From Bacteroidia bacterium (GTDB taxonomy: Bacteria > Bacteroidota > Bacteroidia > Flavobacteriales > Flavobacteriaceae): DNA of 64,000 nucleotides. Shown one piece after another: positions 34,545 through 42,096 of the stretch (within the stretch, counting starts at the first letter, position 1; the number at the start of each line of letters is the position of its first letter). The notes below the pieces were generated by a model. It saw nothing but the letters and a program-made list of their open reading frames with translations, did not search any database and was not told where the DNA came from. The position numbers and the translations under genes were made by a program. The stretch spans positions 1 to 64,000 of the forward strand of contig JAUIIU010000004.1 in assembly GCA_030431695.1 (NCBI GenBank). Direction: 5' to 3'.

Positions 34545-34982
34545 ATGAAAATTAAGTTTGTTGCGCTTCTCATACTGCTGGCAATGGTTTCCTGCAAAAG
34601 CGATGACGGCGGGGTTCAGGACAATAATCCGTACCTCACGGATCCTATCGTAAATCTGAATCTCAACCTGAACCTGCCGCAATATGACCCCCTGAAGTTT
34701 CCAGGCAACAGTCTTGTGATCACACAGCAGGGTATAAAGGGGATCGTGATCTACAATGTGAACAACGACCTCTATACTGCATCCGAACTAAGCGACCCCA
34801 ACCACATCCCGAACAGTTGTTCGAGAATGGAGGTTGATGGTATCATCGTACGCTGTCCATGCGAGAACGATGATAACGAGTACGACATAGTCACCGGGCA
34901 GCACAAGACCAATAATAACGCCTATCCCCTTCAGCAATACAGGATCGTCCGAACCGGCGATGTAATACAGGTTACCAATTAG
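34545..34982 (+). CDS. Rieske-fold-like lipoprotein without cluster ligands
   Basis: 145 residues. Residues 1-18 form a lipoprotein signal (AMVSC lipobox, Cys17). The C-terminal half follows a Rieske domain frame: NSCSRMEVDG, then IVRCPCENDDNEYDIVTGQ, then YPLQQYRIVRTGDVIQV. In true Rieske proteins these positions read CxH and CPCHGS; here both His ligands are missing, so a [2Fe-2S] cluster of Rieske type is not expected. Four Cys remain in the domain or signal. Its stop codon overlaps that of the convergent TonB-dependent receptor (TTAG). Confidence 0.65.
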   Translation: MKIKFVALLILLAMVSCKSDDGGVQDNNPYLTDPIVNLNLNLNLPQYDPLKFPGNSLVITQQGIKGIVIYNVNNDLYTASELSDPNHIPNSCSRMEVDGIIVRCPCENDDNEYDIVTGQHKTNNNAYPLQQYRIVRTGDVIQVTN

Positions 34983-37156
34983 AACAGGATCGTGGCGCCA
35001 AGCAGGAAGTTTATCGTTGCCTGCGGATAGAACCCGGCTCCTTCAACCGTGGTCACAGTACCCGGGTTACTGAAATCATCATCATAGGTAAAGAAATAGC
35101 CGTTTGCCACATACTCCACGTTGAAGATGTTATTCACCAGGGCAGAAAGCACCACAGACCGGGCCAGCGGCACTTCATCCAGTTCATAAACCACGTTGAG
35201 GTCGTTTATGAAATAGCTGTCCAGTTTCGAAACCTCGCTGTCGATATTCCCCATATACTGATCACCAACGAACTTGGATAACAGGGCTACCCGAAGATTC
35301 TTTACAGGGCGGTACTCAAAACTATTCCCACCAACAATGGCCGGGGAGAATGAAATGTTGGTATTTCCCAGGTTGACCAACTGTCCGTCCCTTGAAGTAA
35401 CAAAATCAACATTCTTGTTTGAACTCAGTGCGATATTAGGCCTGATCACAATTGTTTCTGAAACAACTACGGCAGCATCAACCTCCAGGCCAAGTCGGTA
35501 ACTTTTTCCACTGGTAGCACGTATCGGAGCTCCAACATCGTCGATCTCTCCAGTAAGCACCAACTGATCGCGATAGTCCATGAAATAGGCGTTGGTATTC
35601 ACCTGTATTTTTTCCGAATTGAACCGCCAGCCTAATTCATAGTCATTCAGGCTTTCGGGACTGAAGATCCCCTGTTCAAAATCGCTTCTGCGGGGTTCCC
35701 GATTCGCTCTTCCGTAGGAGGCATAGAACTGGTTGGTGCCATTCAGTTCGTAAGACAAGCCCGCTTTTGGGTTGAAGAAACTATAGTTTTCGGATATCTC
35801 CAGGGGAACTTTATCGGAAGTTAGTCCGGTGGTTTCATAATTGATGAACCGGCCCTGGAGGTCCGCATAGACCGACCATTTTTCGTCCAGTTGCCAATTC
35901 GCCTTAGAAAAGATCGTGAACTCACTTTTTTCACCGTTTCCGAAGTAGTATCGATCCCGGATGGATGTATTTCCGGAGAACTGCGACCAGATGACTTCCC
36001 CAAAGTGATCCCCGTCGTAGAAGCTGTAAAAAGCACCGGATGTAATATCGAAGCCCGTTTCCTTATACTGCACGTTGGCATTGATGGCATAAAAATCGTT
36101 GTCGAGCCAACGTCTTCGGATCAGGTCGGCATTCGTAATGGTTTCCCCACCTATCTCGATCGAGCCTATGCCGTGGAAATCCAGGTCGCCATCTTCCTTA
36201 AATTGCTCGAAATAGCCCCTTCCGTAGGTATAATTAAGGGAAATGTTCGAACTCCAGTGATTGTTGTACCGCTGGTTCCACAGCAACTGGTAATGATCCT
36301 GGGCATAATTGTCCACTTCATTATCGTAAAACTGAACCACTCCGTTTGCGTTGGTATACATCCCGGCCGGGTTATAGGTCCTGTCGTTAGCCAGGGTTTC
36401 CGCATCGATCCCGAAATAAGCCTGGTAGGTCTCTTCCCTCCCTCCAAAGGCAAGGAATTTCAATTGGGTATTAAAGTCGCGGTAGGCCGCCTGCAGGAAA
36501 TACGATCTTAGGTCGGAGGTGGCGCGATCCACATAGCCATCGGAGGATATTTTCGACAGTCGCCCGGAAACCTCGAAATGGTCACTCAGCAGGCCTGTAC
36601 TGAACCTCAGGGTATGTTTCAGGGTATTGTAAGATCCGACGGAATTTGCCAATTCGGCATAGGCCTCATCTGAAATAGCATCGGTAAGGATGTTCAAACT
36701 CGCACCGAAGGCACCGGAACCGTTAGTAGAGGTCCCAACACCCCGCTGTAATTGCAGACTTTGAATAGAAGAGGCAAAATCGGGCATATTCACCCAAAAG
36801 GTTCCCTGGCTTTCCGCATCGTTGTATGGTATTCCGTTGAGCGTAACATTAACGCGTGAAGCATCACTCCCCCTCACACGGATATAGGTGTAGCCCACGC
36901 CGGCGCCAGCATCACTGGCAGTGACAACGGATGGCAGGTAATTCAGCAAAATAGGGATATCCTGTCCGAGGTTGCGCTGCTGGAGTTCCTCCTTTTCGAC
37001 ATTCGAATGGGTAATTGGCGCATCTTCCTTCACACGGATGGCCTGGATAAGTACAGCATCGAGATTCTCAACCTCGGTGGAATCCACTGTAACTTCCTGG
37101 GCGATTAGAAACCCGGGGAGAACCAGAAAAATGGACAAAAATGATAACAATTTCAT
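34979..37156 (-). CDS. TonB-dependent receptor under a TPP riboswitch, probable thiamine uptake
   Basis: 725 residues. A signal peptide ends near residue 20 (FLIAQ). The plug domain (about 45-150) includes PSVVTASDAGAGVGYTYIRVRG and LQRGVGTSTNGSGAFG; the remainder is an outer-membrane beta barrel ending in a terminal strand with a hydrophobic last residue (GATILF). It has no N-terminal carboxypeptidase-like domain, so it is not SusC-type. The upstream TPP riboswitch (37261-37395) with terminator predicts expression when thiamine diphosphate is scarce, so the likely ligand is thiamine or a precursor. The barrel alone would not reveal this. Confidence 0.88.
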   Translation of the reverse strand: MKLLSFLSIFLVLPGFLIAQEVTVDSTEVENLDAVLIQAIRVKEDAPITHSNVEKEELQQRNLGQDIPILLNYLPSVVTASDAGAGVGYTYIRVRGSDASRVNVTLNGIPYNDAESQGTFWVNMPDFASSIQSLQLQRGVGTSTNGSGAFGASLNILTDAISDEAYAELANSVGSYNTLKHTLRFSTGLLSDHFEVSGRLSKISSDGYVDRATSDLRSYFLQAAYRDFNTQLKFLAFGGREETYQAYFGIDAETLANDRTYNPAGMYTNANGVVQFYDNEVDNYAQDHYQLLWNQRYNNHWSSNISLNYTYGRGYFEQFKEDGDLDFHGIGSIEIGGETITNADLIRRRWLDNDFYAINANVQYKETGFDITSGAFYSFYDGDHFGEVIWSQFSGNTSIRDRYYFGNGEKSEFTIFSKANWQLDEKWSVYADLQGRFINYETTGLTSDKVPLEISENYSFFNPKAGLSYELNGTNQFYASYGRANREPRRSDFEQGIFSPESLNDYELGWRFNSEKIQVNTNAYFMDYRDQLVLTGEIDDVGAPIRATSGKSYRLGLEVDAAVVVSETIVIRPNIALSSNKNVDFVTSRDGQLVNLGNTNISFSPAIVGGNSFEYRPVKNLRVALLSKFVGDQYMGNIDSEVSKLDSYFINDLNVVYELDEVPLARSVVLSALVNNIFNVEYVANGYFFTYDDDFSNPGTVTTVEGAGFYPQATINFLLGATILF

Positions 37157-37205
37157 TCGTATTGAATTTATACGAATAAAAGGGGCTGTTATTCAGTGTT
37201 AGACA

Positions 37206-37239
37206 TAAAAAAACCTACCGGGTCATCCGATAGGGGTTT
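37206..37239 (-). terminator. expression-platform terminator of the TPP riboswitch
   Basis: Read leftward, a stem formed by CCTATCGG (37234-37227) and CCGGTAGG (37221-37214) with one mismatch is followed by seven Ts. It sits between the aptamer and the receptor start and is the likely ON/OFF element. Confidence 0.65.
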
Positions 37240-37260
37240 CATTGAAGAACCGATCCGGTT

Positions 37261-37395
37261 CTATCCCTTAACAGCATTACCTGTTCAGGTTCAACGGGTA
37301 TGATCTCAGCCAAAACTAGTGTTTAGTATTAAGATTTAAATGTTATATCATTTTTAAACTTAAAACTTAACATTAGTCAAGCACCCCTTTGAGAT
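37261..37395 (-). ncRNA. TPP (thiamine diphosphate) riboswitch
   Basis: Read leftward from 37395, the RNA has the THI-box landmarks in order: GGGGTGCTTG, an AT-rich variable P3 region, GGCTGAGATCATACCCGTT, GAACCTGAACAGGTAATGC and TAAGGGA. These are the conserved pyrimidine- and pyrophosphate-sensor helices of the TPP aptamer. A -7 box TAACTTTG lies just upstream, and a terminator hairpin lies downstream before the TonB-dependent receptor gene. Ligand binding should favour the terminator and reduce receptor synthesis. Confidence 0.95.
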
Positions 37396-37401
37396 GTAGG
37401 G

Positions 37402-37409
37402 CAAAGTTA
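37402..37409 (-). promoter_or_regulatory. -7 promoter element TAACTTTG of the riboswitch transcript
   Basis: On the minus strand 37409-37402 reads TAACTTTG, matching TAnnTTTG; transcription would begin a few bases before the aptamer. It lies between the arfB stop and the riboswitch. Confidence 0.55.
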
Positions 37410-37414
37410 CGCAA

Positions 37415-37819
37415 TTAATCGATGCCGGGTGGTTTGCGTCTAGATTTTTTGAGTGCCTGGCGCTTCTTACTCTCCAGTCTTTTCTCGATAGCACTTCTGC
37501 TGGGCTTTGATTTCTTCCTGGTCTTTCGAACTTTAAGGTTTTCAGTTATGATTTCGAGCAGTCGTTGTATCACTATAGCTTTGTTCCTGTGTTGCGAACG
37601 GGTTTCACCGCAATGTAGTACTATAAAACCTTCCGAATTCAACCTGTTGCCGAGGCGTTCCAGCAACCTGGTTTTCTCTTCATCGGAAATCGCCTCAGAG
37701 TCCCCAATATGAAACCGGACCGATACTTTACTGGAGGTCTTGTTCACATGTTGCCCTCCCGGACCGCTGCTACGGGCCATCGTAAACTGAAGTTCCCTGA
37801 TGATTTGCTCGGTATCCAT
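37415..37819 (-). CDS. arfB: alternative ribosome-rescue factor ArfB (peptidyl-tRNA hydrolase)
   Basis: 134 residues. SSGPGGQHVNKTSSKV near residue 17 holds the catalytic GGQ motif of class I release factors without their stop-codon recognition domains. The C-terminal tail is rich in Lys and Arg (RKTRKKSKPSRSAIEKRLESKK), the tail that senses the empty mRNA channel of stalled ribosomes. It starts at the stop of the DUF4301 gene (one-base overlap) and is the last gene before the riboswitch. Confidence 0.93.
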   Translation of the reverse strand: MDTEQIIRELQFTMARSSGPGGQHVNKTSSKVSVRFHIGDSEAISDEEKTRLLERLGNRLNSEGFIVLHCGETRSQHRNKAIVIQRLLEIITENLKVRKTRKKSKPSRSAIEKRLESKKRQALKKSRRKPPGID

Positions 37820-39348
37820 CAGGCGTTGGGTCTGTGTTCCCTGTTTAGCAGATCGTTCACGGTTTTTACCGGGTTGAAAGTTTCCAGCGGCACTTCTACG
37901 AAGGACGTGTTCCAGTTCGCCATCCCGCCGTTCCAGAGCCCGGGAAGTTCCAAAGCTTTAACGGGGACACCGCCTTCCGATTTCATGGTGATGATACCAC
38001 TACGCGGATCGCTGAATAGTTTCAGGTCGAATTTATTTCCTTTATAATCACGCACCCCGCAAACAATATCCACAGGATTGAAGTGGGTGGCATCATTAAC
38101 GATGGCAGCCATATGGGGATCATCCATGGCGATCTGCGATTTCTCCACGATCTGCAGACTCACCCTTCCGTCCTCACTTTTTACCCAAAAAGGGCCTCCG
38201 CCGGGAGCGCCGGTATTCTTGACCACCCCACAGACCCGGATCGGACGGTTCAGGATGCCAAACAACCTGGCCTGGTCTTCCGGGATATCCTTGATGCTAA
38301 GTTCATTCCACAGGAACGACCGTATTTCCTTTATAATTCCTTCATCTACTTCCTCCTGTTCCAGCATTCCCAGGTAATTGAATACTTTTTTCTGGATCCA
38401 AAGTAGTTTCCCACCCAACAGTTTTTTATTGTGAATAGTAGTGTCTGTATACTCTTCAGCAACAACATTGTCGATATTCTTGATAAAGATCAGGTCCGTA
38501 TCCACCTCGTTCAGGTTTTCGAGCAATGCGCCGTGGCCTGACGGGCGGAAGACCAACTCACCATTTTCATCACGGAATGGCCTGTTGTCTTCGGTTACCG
38601 CAAGGCTGTCCGTTTCTTTTTTCTGAAAGGAATAGGAAATATGGAAATCCGTTTTGGTTTTCTTACTTACGCGTTTCCGAACAGACTCAAATGCTTCCTT
38701 AAAGTAAGGGACGTGCTTTTCAGAAAAGGTAAAGTGAAGATATGCGTCATCATTTACCGCCGAATAGTGGGCCGCCTCGAACAACTGTTCCTCGAAGGCA
38801 GTGGTATAGTACTTGGAATATTTATGAAAAGGTATCAACCCCTTGGGTAAATTCGAGAAATTCAGTCCTTCAGGTTCCAGCATCATTTTTACGAACCAGT
38901 GCATTCGCTGCCCTTTGCTACTCTTTTTGTACTCCGGGCAATGTTTGCGGATCATCTTTCTCACCTCGTTGATGAATGCGAACTCCTTCGAATGCTTGAT
39001 GAATCTTTCCAAGGCCGCAGATGGATTATTGGTGAGATAATCTCTAAGTGATTCTTGTTCCGGGTTGTAACTTACGAGGAAATTATGAAGGAACTCGAAC
39101 ATCCTGGTGGCTGCCCCCGATGCAGGTACAAATTTCACGATGTCCAGACTATCCTTTTGCCGTTCAAACAGGTCCACGAGTTTAACCTGACCTCCTTCAG
39201 GGATGACTTCAATTCCATTCCCTACCGAAGCTGCGGTAACTATATCGACAGGTGGGATTCCAAGGGAGAAGGTTTCTAATTGTCGGTAAATGGTTTGAAG
39301 TGGTATTCCGTGATCCTTTATTTGTTGCAGATCCTTTTTTGTTAACAT
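37819..39348 (-). CDS. DUF4301 protein
   Basis: 509 residues. FVPASGAATRMFEFLHNFL near residue 75 is the DUF4301 hallmark and resembles the glycine-rich loop of nucleotidyltransferases. ENLNEVDTDLIFIKNIDNV and KPVKTV-type stretches further on agree with a UDP-sugar-pyrophosphorylase-like fold. The family is restricted mainly to Bacteroidota and its reaction is unknown to me. It shares one base with the NadR-like kinase gene upstream and with arfB downstream, so all three are co-translated. Confidence 0.82.
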   Translation of the reverse strand: MLTKKDLQQIKDHGIPLQTIYRQLETFSLGIPPVDIVTAASVGNGIEVIPEGGQVKLVDLFERQKDSLDIVKFVPASGAATRMFEFLHNFLVSYNPEQESLRDYLTNNPSAALERFIKHSKEFAFINEVRKMIRKHCPEYKKSSKGQRMHWFVKMMLEPEGLNFSNLPKGLIPFHKYSKYYTTAFEEQLFEAAHYSAVNDDAYLHFTFSEKHVPYFKEAFESVRKRVSKKTKTDFHISYSFQKKETDSLAVTEDNRPFRDENGELVFRPSGHGALLENLNEVDTDLIFIKNIDNVVAEEYTDTTIHNKKLLGGKLLWIQKKVFNYLGMLEQEEVDEGIIKEIRSFLWNELSIKDIPEDQARLFGILNRPIRVCGVVKNTGAPGGGPFWVKSEDGRVSLQIVEKSQIAMDDPHMAAIVNDATHFNPVDIVCGVRDYKGNKFDLKLFSDPRSGIITMKSEGGVPVKALELPGLWNGGMANWNTSFVEVPLETFNPVKTVNDLLNREHRPNA

Positions 39349-39911
39349 TATCTCCCTAGTAATTTTTCTGTTATTGCAATGGCTTTCTCCAAACGCTCCA
39401 ACTTTCCTCCACTCAACTCATGGTAGGGAATGCCATTGGATTTTAATTCGTTCTCAAAAATACGAAATATGCCTTTTCGCTCTTCGGGGCGATCCCGAAG
39501 GTCATCGGGCACCCATGGTGTGTCCACGAAGGTAAGAAAATACAGGTCGTAACGATTCTCCTGAACTGCATTTCTTATGGCTTCCGGACAACTGCCGTCG
39601 TAATAGTATTCGGAATAAACCTTCAGTTCCCGCAGGTCCGTATCACAAAACAGTACTTCCTCTGCATTTTTAGCCTTTAAATTCTCTGAAGCGATCTGTC
39701 CTTCGGCTATGGGCAGAAGGTCATCCCAGCTCACTTTCTCCCCCGTCCGGTCCCACTTTTCCTGGAGGTATTCCCGCATAAACTCCGGCACCCATTCGGT
39801 TCCGAAATGATCCGCCAGGGCCTCGGCCAGGGTAGTCTTCCCGGTGGATTCGGGCCCAAATAACACTACTTTCAGGCAGGTTGCTGGTTCTTGTCTAAGT
39901 GTTTCTTCCAT
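39348..39911 (-). CDS. NadR-like P-loop kinase (nicotinamide riboside or thiamine kinase)
   Basis: 187 residues from the ATG at 39911; a longer reading frame would overlap the transporter gene more. VLFGPESTGKTTLAEAL is the Walker A loop, LFCDTDLRE the Walker B-like strand, and RDRPEERKGIF a lid with basic residues. This is the kinase domain of NadR (AAA_28 type) without the nucleotidyltransferase domain. With a PnuC-type permease next to it, such a kinase traps the imported vitamin by phosphorylation. Nicotinamide riboside is the textbook substrate; thiamine is a serious alternative here because a thiamine-binding protein gene is in the same unit. It overlaps the transporter gene by 40 bases. 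Confidence 0.8.
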   Translation of the reverse strand: MEETLRQEPATCLKVVLFGPESTGKTTLAEALADHFGTEWVPEFMREYLQEKWDRTGEKVSWDDLLPIAEGQIASENLKAKNAEEVLFCDTDLRELKVYSEYYYDGSCPEAIRNAVQENRYDLYFLTFVDTPWVPDDLRDRPEERKGIFRIFENELKSNGIPYHELSGGKLERLEKAIAITEKLLGR

Positions 39912-40504
39912 GCTAGATAACCCTGGATGGCCAGGACGGTAAAAATAAGGTATTGAAGCGACAACATTCCCCAGCCGCGATACGCATAAAGGGGAACCGT
40001 GATCACATCGGCAAATATCCAAAGGGTCCAATTCTCCAGTTTCTTATTGGCCATATACCACATAGCCGTAAAAAAGACCCCGGATGTAAAGATGTCTATA
40101 TAATTGGTGGGCCCAATTTCCGTGCCATAGGCGGTGTACACACCATAGGTAATAGCCATGGTAATGACGAAGAATCCAAAACCGATAAGCTTTTCCCTGC
40201 TGCTGGTTTGGGAGACCGGAACCACAAGTTTACCGTCTTTTCTCCTTGCCCAGTTCCACCAACCATAAATGCTCATGATAGAATAGTAGAAATTCATCAT
40301 CATGTCGCCCATCAATTCGTCGTAGAGGAATAGATACACTGTGATGGTTGTAGCGATCAGGCCTGTAGGATAGACCAGGATATTCCTTTGTTTGGCATAT
40401 ACCACGCTGGCGATCCCGAACACAAAGGCAATGGCTTCAAGAACGATCAAATAGCCTTCCCGCTGGTAATAAGGTTCGAGGAAAAAATCAAAAATGGGGC
40501 TCAT
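39872..40504 (-). CDS. PnuC-family vitamin transporter (PnuC or PnuT)
   Basis: 210 residues with seven membrane segments, full family length. NWTLWIFADVITVPLYAYRGW near residue 145 is the PnuC signature that lines the substrate site. PnuC members carry nicotinamide riboside; PnuT members carry thiamine by facilitated diffusion and rely on a kinase to trap it. The upstream gene, overlapping by 17 bases, encodes a thiamine-binding-type protein, and a TPP riboswitch controls a receptor at the end of the same array, so thiamine is at least as likely as nicotinamide riboside. Confidence 0.85.
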   Translation of the reverse strand: MSPIFDFFLEPYYQREGYLIVLEAIAFVFGIASVVYAKQRNILVYPTGLIATTITVYLFLYDELMGDMMMNFYYSIMSIYGWWNWARRKDGKLVVPVSQTSSREKLIGFGFFVITMAITYGVYTAYGTEIGPTNYIDIFTSGVFFTAMWYMANKKLENWTLWIFADVITVPLYAYRGWGMLSLQYLIFTVLAIQGYLAWKKHLDKNQQPA

Positions 40505-40748
40505 AGTCGCTGCGATCTGTCTTTACGATCTTCATGTGGATCAGGCCTATGTCGATGGCCCCGAAAACATCTTTTATTTCCGAAGTAAGAACTCCCATAA
40601 CTTCGTCGTATTCCCCAAATACCTGGGTACTGAGAGGATTTTCCAAGATGGTAAGCCCGCTCGAACGAAGTGCTTTGATAAATCGAATGATATGAGGTTC
40701 GAAATCATCCTGTAAAGGCGATAGTGTAAGATCAACGGATATTTTCAT
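40488..40748 (-). CDS. thiamine-binding protein (MTH1187/YkoF-like)
   Basis: 86 residues. KISVDLTLSPLQDDFEPHIIRFIKALRSSGL and STQVFGEYDEVMGVLT match the ferredoxin-like Thiamine_BP family (MTH1187, YqgV, YkoF). Members bind thiamine or related pyrimidines; no enzymatic role is certain. No signal peptide is present, so it is cytoplasmic. It overlaps the PnuC-type gene by 17 bases and follows the GGGP synthase-like gene by 8 bases. Confidence 0.78.
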   Translation of the reverse strand: MKISVDLTLSPLQDDFEPHIIRFIKALRSSGLTILENPLSTQVFGEYDEVMGVLTSEIKDVFGAIDIGLIHMKIVKTDRSDYEPHF

Positions 40749-40756
40749 AGGCTGAA

Positions 40757-41458
40757 TCAGTTCTTTTCATAAACGGTTCCCATCACAACCATATCGGCTC
40801 CGGCATCATAGGCCCGTTTCAATTGTTCTTTGGTTCGTATCCCTCCACCCACGATGAGCGGAATCTCAATTTCTTTGCGCACTGAACTAATTATCTCCGG
40901 TCTTACCGGTTCTATAGCACCACTACCCGCTTCCAGGTAGACCAGTTTTTTACCGGTAAGTTCTGCGGCTACGGCCGTATCCACGATCCGCCCCGGATCC
41001 AATTGGGACATGGGAAGAGTTTGAGTAACTCTCGAAACCGCCGAATCATTCCTACCATCTACCAGTATGTAACCAGTGGGGATCACTTCCAGGTCGACAG
41101 ACCGTAACATGGGTACGGCTTTGATCTGTTGATGCACCAGGTATTCCGGGTTATCCCCCGAGAAAAGTGTTAGGAATAGTAAGGCATCGGCATTCCTGGA
41201 GATCTGGCTAACGTCGCCTGGGAAGAGGACAATGGGCTTGGAGGTGTATAATTTCAGAGCATCCACCAAACGCTGGGTATCACCATCAGCCACCGTACTT
41301 CCACCTACAAAGAGATGGGTTGTTTCTGAAGGCAGGCTGCGCAGGAAAGCTGCGGCAGTCTCCGGATCGAATTTCTCAGGATCCAGCAATACGGCAAGCA
41401 GTTTTCGTTTTTCTGAAACGGCCTGGACTATAGCCTTGTAGGTGTTCCGGATTCTCAT
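40757..41458 (-). CDS. geranylgeranylglyceryl phosphate synthase-like protein (PcrB/GGGPS group II)
   Basis: 233 residues, TIM-barrel. LAVLLDPEKFDPE at the N-terminus, LFVGGSTVADG, and the phosphate-binding ends EAGSGAIEPV and IVGGGIRTKEQL match the GGGPS/PcrB family. Group II enzymes of archaea and Bacteroidota join sn-glycerol-1-phosphate with a prenyl diphosphate through an ether bond. The native product in Bacteroidota is not established. It overlaps the PPTase stop by four bases. Confidence 0.88.
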   Translation of the reverse strand: MRIRNTYKAIVQAVSEKRKLLAVLLDPEKFDPETAAAFLRSLPSETTHLFVGGSTVADGDTQRLVDALKLYTSKPIVLFPGDVSQISRNADALLFLTLFSGDNPEYLVHQQIKAVPMLRSVDLEVIPTGYILVDGRNDSAVSRVTQTLPMSQLDPGRIVDTAVAAELTGKKLVYLEAGSGAIEPVRPEIISSVRKEIEIPLIVGGGIRTKEQLKRAYDAGADMVVMGTVYEKN

Positions 41459-42096
41459 TGGCTCTCTTCAGATATTAGCGCGTAGGCACAGGTGAATCCT
41501 TCAAATTCGAGCATGGACACATTATACGACTGCTCCTTCCCGTTAAACGAAACAAATGCCGAGGTTCTCAGTTGGTCCATATCGAATTCTTCAACATAGA
41601 TATGTTGGAGGAAACTCAATCCGGGTGCAGCAAAACTCTTGTACAGGCTTTCTTTAGCTCCCCAGACCATTGTAAGTTTTCTCATGATCAGTTCTACACT
41701 CTCAAGGTGCCGGTATTCCTCGAAAGGCGTAAATTTATGGGCTATCCTTAAGATCTTCGGACGCTGCTTTTCGATATCGATCCCCACTTCCGCACCACCT
41801 ATGATGATCGCAGAAAAGATAAAGGAGTGCGTAATGGAGATGAACCTGTCGTCCTTTAAATGTGGTTTCCCCTGTTCGTCGTAATACAGGTCGTGATCCG
41901 TATAGCCTTCTTCAGCAAGCAAGTGACGAATACTCATAAAACCCCTGCGATGCAGGTCGCTCTTCATACCGTCCACTCTTTCCCGGCAATTTTCAGTTAA
42001 AACAATGCCTTCGGAAAGCTCCTCGAAGGACTCTTCTATCTTCCAAATGAGCACTTTAGTCCTTGCGTCAACTGTTATTGTTTTGTAAAGCGGCAT
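41455..42096 (-). CDS. 4'-phosphopantetheinyl transferase (Sfp type)
   Basis: 213 residues. GVDIEKQRPKI and WGAKESLYKSF are the magnesium-binding and catalytic motifs of Sfp/AcpT-type transferases, which load coenzyme A phosphopantetheine onto carrier proteins. No polyketide or nonribosomal peptide genes are in the window. It is the first gene of the leftward array that ends with arfB, and it diverges from ahcY. Confidence 0.92.
   Translation of the reverse strand: MPLYKTITVDARTKVLIWKIEESFEELSEGIVLTENCRERVDGMKSDLHRRGFMSIRHLLAEEGYTDHDLYYDEQGKPHLKDDRFISITHSFIFSAIIIGGAEVGIDIEKQRPKILRIAHKFTPFEEYRHLESVELIMRKLTMVWGAKESLYKSFAAPGLSFLQHIYVEEFDMDQLRTSAFVSFNGKEQSYNVSMLEFEGFTCAYALISEESQ

Follow-up and report, generated by a model that had tools for sequence, protein, structure and literature searches.

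Organisation of the locus

The DNA analysed here, referred to as the window, was the first 64,000 nucleotides of contig JAUIIU010000004.1 from a Flavobacteriaceae genome (assembly GCA_030431695.1). It carries a gene cluster in which a thiamine pyrophosphate (TPP) riboswitch and a TonB-dependent receptor share a neighbourhood with a PnuC-family permease and a single-domain NadR-type kinase. An earlier interpretation made from the sequence alone (the sequence-only reading) had proposed that this cluster acquires thiamine (vitamin B1); all of its gene coordinates held, with every gene on the minus strand. In the order of transcription the locus consisted of a phosphopantetheinyl transferase, a GGGPS-family protein, a Thiamine_BP protein, the permease, the kinase, a DUF4301 protein, an ArfB-type hydrolase, the TPP riboswitch, a terminator and the TonB receptor.

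The permease gene (39872–40504; PF04973, 4.7e-50) probably encodes the thiamine permease PnuT. It overlapped the upstream Thiamine_BP gene (40488–40748) by 17 nt and the downstream kinase gene (39348–39911; AAA_28, 2.6e-45) by 40 nt, which bore out the overlapping array previously described; the kinase is a probable thiamine kinase, converting thiamine to thiamine monophosphate (TMP). The Thiamine_BP protein, of 86 amino acids and YkoF/MTH1187-like, fell just under the Pfam cut-off (PF01910, 24.6 against 24.9 bits, E 2.5e-5). Among its homologues PF01910 was matched at E ≤ 1e-3 in 15 of 17, and Ykof in four. Its probable cytoplasmic ligand is thiamine or a vitamer.

Riboswitch and receptor

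Analysis of the whole window with cmscan at the Rfam gathering score revealed zero riboswitches, and a search of the whole genome with RF00059 likewise found none. A focused search matched RF00059 at 37247–37398 (minus strand) with 38.0 bits (gathering score 54.3; E 7e-6), covering model positions 1–105. In this alignment 63 positions of the P3 loop were omitted, and this long P3 insert is probably the reason for the score below gathering. R1, a riboswitch model built from 22 relatives, scored the same element at 75.4 bits (E 1.1e-17), its sole match in the genome at E ≤ 0.01. Given the focused and R1 matches, the gathering-score negatives for the window and the genome were misses. The aptamer was followed by an expression platform, an intrinsic terminator-like hairpin at 37234–37214 and then T7 (local RNA fold z −2.97). 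The riboswitch and terminator previously described ahead of the receptor were therefore confirmed by RF00059, by R1 and by the terminator site.

The receptor (34979–37156; PF00593, 4.8e-23; PF07715 (Plug), 3e-12) was OMthi/Omr1-like and, as is characteristic of such thiamine receptors, riboswitch-led; its predicted cargo is thiamine. A core-pattern search placed the aptamer core ahead of 82 of 83 homologous receptors. Only 82 core matches were counted in the 1.95 Mb searched on both strands, so the arrangement is beyond chance. Narrower core patterns had caught fewer loci (6, then 74 of the 83) than the final one. In relatives the aptamer halves lay up to 100 nt apart. Core-pattern matches in loci L219 and L246 were discounted because R1 did not confirm them, and the match in L168 was likewise left out of the counts.

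The metabolic gap in the family

The routes to TPP were compared across the window's family in 100 genomes, each representing a different genus, with absence calls that hinge on profile sensitivity and on genome completeness (66–100%). Thiamine pyrophosphokinase (TPK) was found in six genomes (94 without) and ThiC in 22 (78 without). ThiE was matched in 40 at E ≤ 1e-3, 32 of them at ≥ 100 bits, the level at which ThiE was counted. ThiL was present in 99 at E ≤ 1e-3 and over its cut-off in 98. No genome had ThiK (TIGR02721) over the cut-off, with weak matches in 11.

ThiC, ThiE and TPK were all lacking in 65 of the 100 genomes, and all 65 held both the kinase and the permease; without the eight weak-ThiE genomes this became 57 of 57. 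The window's genome was among the 65, with no match to ThiC, ThiE or TPK at E ≤ 1e-3, and the TPK catalytic domain (PF04263) was matched neither in the kinase nor elsewhere in that genome. ThiL was over the cut-off in 63 of these gap genomes, the exceptions being G081 (66% complete, no match) and G057 (weak match). As the known route to TPP runs via TMP, a kinase converting thiamine to TMP is expected in these genomes, and the NadR-type kinase was the only candidate found for this step. The kinase was present in 96 of the 100 family genomes; of the four without it, G002 and G016 had TPK, and G020 and G079 had ThiC and no permease. One-step formation of TPP by the kinase was rejected on the presence of ThiL in the 63 gap genomes, although ThiL was also over the cut-off in two TPK genomes without ThiE. 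The earlier proposal that the kinase acts on thiamine is thus supported beyond gene position, by the frequent absence of TPK, ThiE and ThiC while ThiL is kept.

Kinase and permease

The kinase (187 amino acids) matched the NadR model TIGR01526 (1.4e-29) over model positions 163–318 only and below the model's cut-off. The match was confined to the kinase half, and domain scans of the protein found no nicotinamide mononucleotide (NMN) adenylyltransferase half. The predicted structure (mean predicted local distance difference test score, pLDDT, 94.3) had the ribosylnicotinamide-kinase fold, its best match being NadR 8x7f (Z 22.6, TMq 0.84, root mean square deviation 2.2 over 178 residues). The P-loop residues, E43, R46, D90, T91, W133, D136 and R139 were common to the kinase and NadR. 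Two positions differed: of 148 rows of single-domain kinases, some of them close relatives, 143 had E76 and 125 had K97, where NadR had Ile in 6/6 and Gln in 5/6, respectively. Pfam found no adenylyltransferase half at L228, L241 or L223 either. From the pathway gap and the gene context, the kinase is probably a thiamine kinase (ATP + thiamine to TMP + ADP) misannotated as a nicotinamide riboside (NR) kinase.

The permease, the sole PF04973 match in its genome, belonged clearly to this family (170.4 bits against a cut-off of 27.3) and was labelled PnuC, over the cut-off, by NCBIfam. Labels in the permease trees were assigned by gene context, so that the comparison is with context-labelled relatives and not with characterised PnuT. 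In the careful tree, from which L221, L222, 4QTN, L251 and L253 had been removed beforehand, the permeases linked to bidomain NadR formed their own clade (support 100/100), and a single clade of these with the Flavobacteriaceae permeases was rejected by the approximately unbiased (AU) test (p = 0.0016). A quick, larger tree, in which the long 4QTN row had no firm position, placed the window permease in a 40-row set (SH-like approximate likelihood ratio test, 95) with four TPK-linked and four riboswitch-linked permeases. The permease is probably PnuT, carrying thiamine. The sequence-only reading had suggested this, and the phylogeny, showing no grouping with NadR-linked PnuC, supports it.

Gene neighbourhood across the family

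PF04973 was matched 105 times in 98 of the 100 family genomes, and all 105 loci were examined. In 92 of the 105 the gene immediately following the permease was the kinase. Counted separately, 92 loci had a main-type permease (main-type loci); in these, Thiamine_BP lay directly before the permease in 69, DUF4301 behind in 78, and the receptor and the TPP core downstream in 79 each, and some of the loci without a given neighbour are contig ends. This recurrence agrees with the association previously proposed. In 85 of the 96 kinase genomes a TPP riboswitch followed the kinase on the same strand at a distance of no more than 13 kb (median distance 2.0 kb). Of 80 kinase loci in a separate named collection, 52 carried the riboswitch, always on the strand of the kinase, with flanks of at most 6 kb that miss riboswitches lying farther away. 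NAD-synthesis genes, which would have favoured a vitamin B3 function, were absent from the nine window proteins to which the scan was limited.

Gene order was broadly kept within the family. Eight of the 92 main-type loci had lost DUF4301 (seven also lacked ArfB; seven were in genomes of <2 Mb), and in all eight a stretch of some 1.3 kb still held the permease and kinase together with the riboswitch and receptor. The explanation of the adjacency as mere family-wide synteny was rejected, as the adjacency survives gene loss and occurs in other families.

Other PnuC copies were accompanied by bidomain NadR. At L104 (8812–12426) a TonB receptor, the only one without the riboswitch core, a PnuC and a bidomain NadR, one half of which was cytidylyltransferase-like, lay in a row, which is likely a complete NR system in a flavobacterium; the same genome (G001) additionally carried an ordinary kinase locus. 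The second PnuC of G033 lay behind a 5′-nucleotidase (PF06189) gene (L081:6594–8055), which suggests nucleoside or NR uptake.

G016, which has no kinase, encoded a riboswitch, a receptor, a divergent PnuC (PnuC′) and TPK in a row, the arrangement that an extract of PMC5613172 describes for gut Bacteroidetes. G017 had no permease beside its Thiamine_BP and kinase genes and carried a divergent PnuC just behind the riboswitch-led receptor. A further PnuC type, in four genomes, had a TPP-riboswitch-like element directly upstream (weak, 19.5–29.4 bits, one partial). The sequence context of G016, G017 and these four genomes points to thiamine as a common substrate. Weak TPP-riboswitch matches directly ahead of a divergent PnuC were located at L084:9559–11335, L092:735–2492, L093:8688–10423 and L095:9526–11282. 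At these four loci the PnuC gene overlapped that of an acyl-CoA-dehydrogenase-like protein of about 340 amino acids; the best NCBIfam model for the L092 protein was HsaA monooxygenase, far under the cut-off. The pair is possibly a new salvage pair for thiamine or a vitamer.

The kinase beyond the family

The analysis was extended to 296 Bacteroidota genomes, with raw counts that ignore kinship. Four rows were dropped for weak best matches of 27–30 bits (G131, G183, G379, G386), and seven as bidomain by open reading frame (ORF) length and adjacency to PnuC (G112, G133, G195, G230, G233, G287, G328); among bidomain loci the domain scan covered L104 alone. The single-domain kinase was found in 68 of the 296 genomes, each with a PnuC-family permease. 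Outside genus g101, in which the kinase is fused to DUF4301, no genome held both kinase and TPK, 54 held the kinase only, 131 TPK only and 94 neither.

Outside the family there were 41 kinase genomes, and 31 loci from these were fetched. Seven of the 31 preceded a riboswitch-led homologous receptor on the same strand (L223, L225, L231, L234, L240, L250 and L252), the riboswitches of L225 and L231 being weak (28.8–28.9 bits). In L250 and L252, from another family, the kinase ended 66–69 nt before the riboswitch with no permease match in the 16-kb stretch; the kinase thus tracks the thiamine receptor even when the permease is missing. At L254:6121–8649 a kinase relative lay directly behind a gene for a dehydrogenase E1, a TPP-dependent enzyme family.

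DUF4301 and the flanking genes

The DUF4301 gene (37819–39348, minus strand; PF14134, 5e-194) lay immediately behind the kinase; certain genera have the two as a fusion. Its model (pLDDT 92.3) had a nucleotidyltransferase-like fold, with UDP-sugar pyrophosphorylases as the best matches (TM score 0.38–0.52). Among the literature matches listed, only a rumen metaproteome study names DUF4301. A bolder proposal, which we regard as quite unlikely, is that single-domain NadR-type kinases form a hitherto unrecognised thiamine kinase family across Bacteroidota and that DUF4301 acts next, on TMP, making nucleotide-linked thiamine (e.g. adenosine thiamine diphosphate) or tuning TPP supply.

The remaining genes were syntenic neighbours, also on the minus strand. 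The ArfB-type peptidyl-tRNA hydrolase (37415–37819; NF006718, 3.5e-37) held its place by conserved order and is probably functionally unrelated to the cluster. Upstream of Thiamine_BP were the GGGPS-family prenyl-glyceryl phosphate synthase (40757–41458; NF003198, 2.2e-76) and the 4′-phosphopantetheinyl transferase (41455–42096; PF01648, 1.3e-10).

Proposed function and alternatives

We put at roughly 0.8 the probability that the locus is a thiamine acquisition system, in which genes usually labelled for vitamin B3 salvage import thiamine and add its first phosphate, in the window's genome and in most of the relatives examined. What was observed is the gene content, the riboswitch, the cross-genome context, the kinase fold and the absence of ThiC, ThiE and TPK with ThiL kept; each substrate, and which way it flows, is inferred. 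The TonB receptor would bring thiamine through the outer membrane, its expression being repressed by ample TPP via the transcriptional riboswitch. The PnuC-family permease, acting as PnuT, would pass thiamine across the inner membrane, where the NadR-fold kinase would trap it as TMP. ThiL, encoded elsewhere in the genome, would then convert TMP to TPP. The kinase would thus take the position of the Bacteroides thiamine pyrophosphokinase (Tnr3).

Several observations weigh against this reading. The riboswitch governs the receptor, and neither the permease nor the kinase; the sequence-only reading had already noted that no TPP riboswitch precedes the permease, and this stood. Its caveat that the link was by position only no longer holds, as the reading now also rests on the metabolic gap, the cross-genome context and the permease tree. 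Ten of 37 kinase-linked permeases fell outside the 40-row set of the window permease. The kinase phylogeny was dropped as support for a separate origin. In its quick tree, which carried a long-branch warning, all but one of the seven bidomain rows fell on the same side, at weak support (79). The careful tree, from which L258 and L256 had been removed beforehand, did not yield a single clade, and one clade of Flavobacteriaceae and NadR kinases was not rejected (AU p = 0.166). Kinase and TPK occurred together in 14 of the 17 genomes of genus g101 and in four genera of the family (G003, G051, G061, G071). ThiL was kept in G016 and G071, both with TPK and without ThiC and ThiE, so that ThiL retention alone does not prove synthesis of TMP from thiamine; ThiE could also be replaced by YjbQ or a different TMP synthase, outside the searches made.

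Observations from other families also weigh against it. There was no TPP riboswitch at 24 of the 31 kinase loci outside the family, and in family f8 (L242, L244, L246) no permease, receptor or confirmed riboswitch lay within 16 kb of the kinase. Permeases of family f23 scored high with the hidden Markov model of this analysis, yet no TPP riboswitch was found in their 3.5-kb loci. L213 (family f11), with receptor, PnuC and TPK in a row, was also without one. The Rfam gathering score gave 0/20 for the 19 f23 loci and L213, and R1 gave 0/21 with L218 added. The TPK neighbours of f23 permeases, where seen, were convergent, which makes "TPK-linked" a weak label there.

Salvage of NR by a true PnuC and a ribosylnicotinamide kinase, with the riboswitch-led receptor a neighbour only through old gene order, is unlikely. 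It would explain why NadR heads the fold matches of the kinase and NadR chains rank high in its sequence matches, the catalytic residues common to NadR, the PnuC label from NCBIfam and the broadly kept gene order. However, the kinase lacks the NMN adenylyltransferase half and is rarely found with TPK, and its adjacency to riboswitch and receptor outlasts the loss of intervening genes and recurs in other families, twice without a nearby permease. NR salvage also fits poorly with the rejection of a permease clade including NadR-linked PnuC, with the lack of a TPP riboswitch at all five bidomain NadR loci (0/5), and with the six of 296 genomes (G001, G148, G171, G244, G283, G299) that hold both a bidomain-length NadR and the single-domain kinase.

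Thiamine_BP/YkoF relatives bind hydroxymethylpyrimidine (HMP) besides thiamine, which counts for a different cargo: another vitamer (TMP, HMP, thiazole alcohol or a degradation product) would be imported and phosphorylated by the kinase. ThiE, kept by 11 of the 78 ThiC-lacking genomes, could join salvaged moieties there, and B1 degradation products can sustain marine bacterioplankton according to an extract of PMC10470507. This account is very unlikely, as joining HMP or thiazole to TMP needs ThiE, and 67 of the 100 genomes have neither ThiE nor ThiC; imported TMP would require no kinase. That the kinase and DUF4301 form a two-step route to a nucleotide-activated compound unconnected to thiamine is highly improbable, even though the two are a single ORF in 17 loci (L068, L132, L157, L169–L178 and L180–L183; window counterpart 37819–39911) and DUF4301 has a UDP-sugar-pyrophosphorylase-like fold. 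In 12 main-type loci the kinase had no DUF4301 behind it (in L123 the contig ends), nine of the 12 with a riboswitch core downstream, and DUF4301 was unmatched in the class-level loci L219–L258.

If the kinase is indeed a thiamine kinase, a gene usually labelled NadR-type or AAA kinase and present in 96 of the 100 family genomes is misnamed, models of B1 auxotrophy in this group could be completed, and the rule of thumb that reads B3 salvage from a NadR-type kinase next to PnuC would not hold for single-domain kinases. The misannotation of such kinases, raised by the sequence-only reading, is supported as probable on the metabolic gap and cross-genome context.

Comparison with known systems

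TPP-riboswitch-led TonB receptors and PnuT are already known as Bacteroidetes B1 uptake genes, as stated in the extract of PMC5613172. Extracts of two other papers describe Bacteroidetes B1 expression as dominated by omr1 and pnuC (PMC12442306) and PnuT genes as occasionally under TPP riboswitches (PMC7749635). Among the matches listed from the open PubMed Central subset, no paper names a NadR-type thiamine kinase, so replacement of TPK by a NadR-family kinase plus ThiL would be new within the PnuT system.

The OMthi-PnuT-Tnr3 system of Bacteroides thetaiotaomicron (BT2390, BT2396–BT2397) comprises a riboswitch-led receptor, a PnuC-family permease and an ATP-dependent thiamine-trapping enzyme, according to the extract of PMC5613172. 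The window locus is alike in its riboswitch-led TonB receptor and PnuC-family inner-membrane permease. The window's genome lacks Tnr3, which takes thiamine to TPP in one step, whereas the neighbour of its permease is a NadR-fold kinase, and the second phosphate would require ThiL. With PnuC-NadR NR salvage, as outlined for Haemophilus and Lactococcus in the extract of PMC7221760, the locus shares the PnuC-family permease and the NadR-type kinase fold, but it lacks the NMN adenylyltransferase domain, has a TPP-riboswitch context and has a permease that groups elsewhere. The putative Thiamine_BP protein shares its family assignment with MTH1187/YkoF (PF01910), but it lies just under the Pfam cut-off and its gene overlaps that of the PnuC-family permease. 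In Escherichia coli, thiamine is taken to TMP by ThiK (YcfN) and then to TPP by ThiL. The chemistry proposed for the window kinase is the same as that of ThiK, whereas its fold is the P-loop NadR type.

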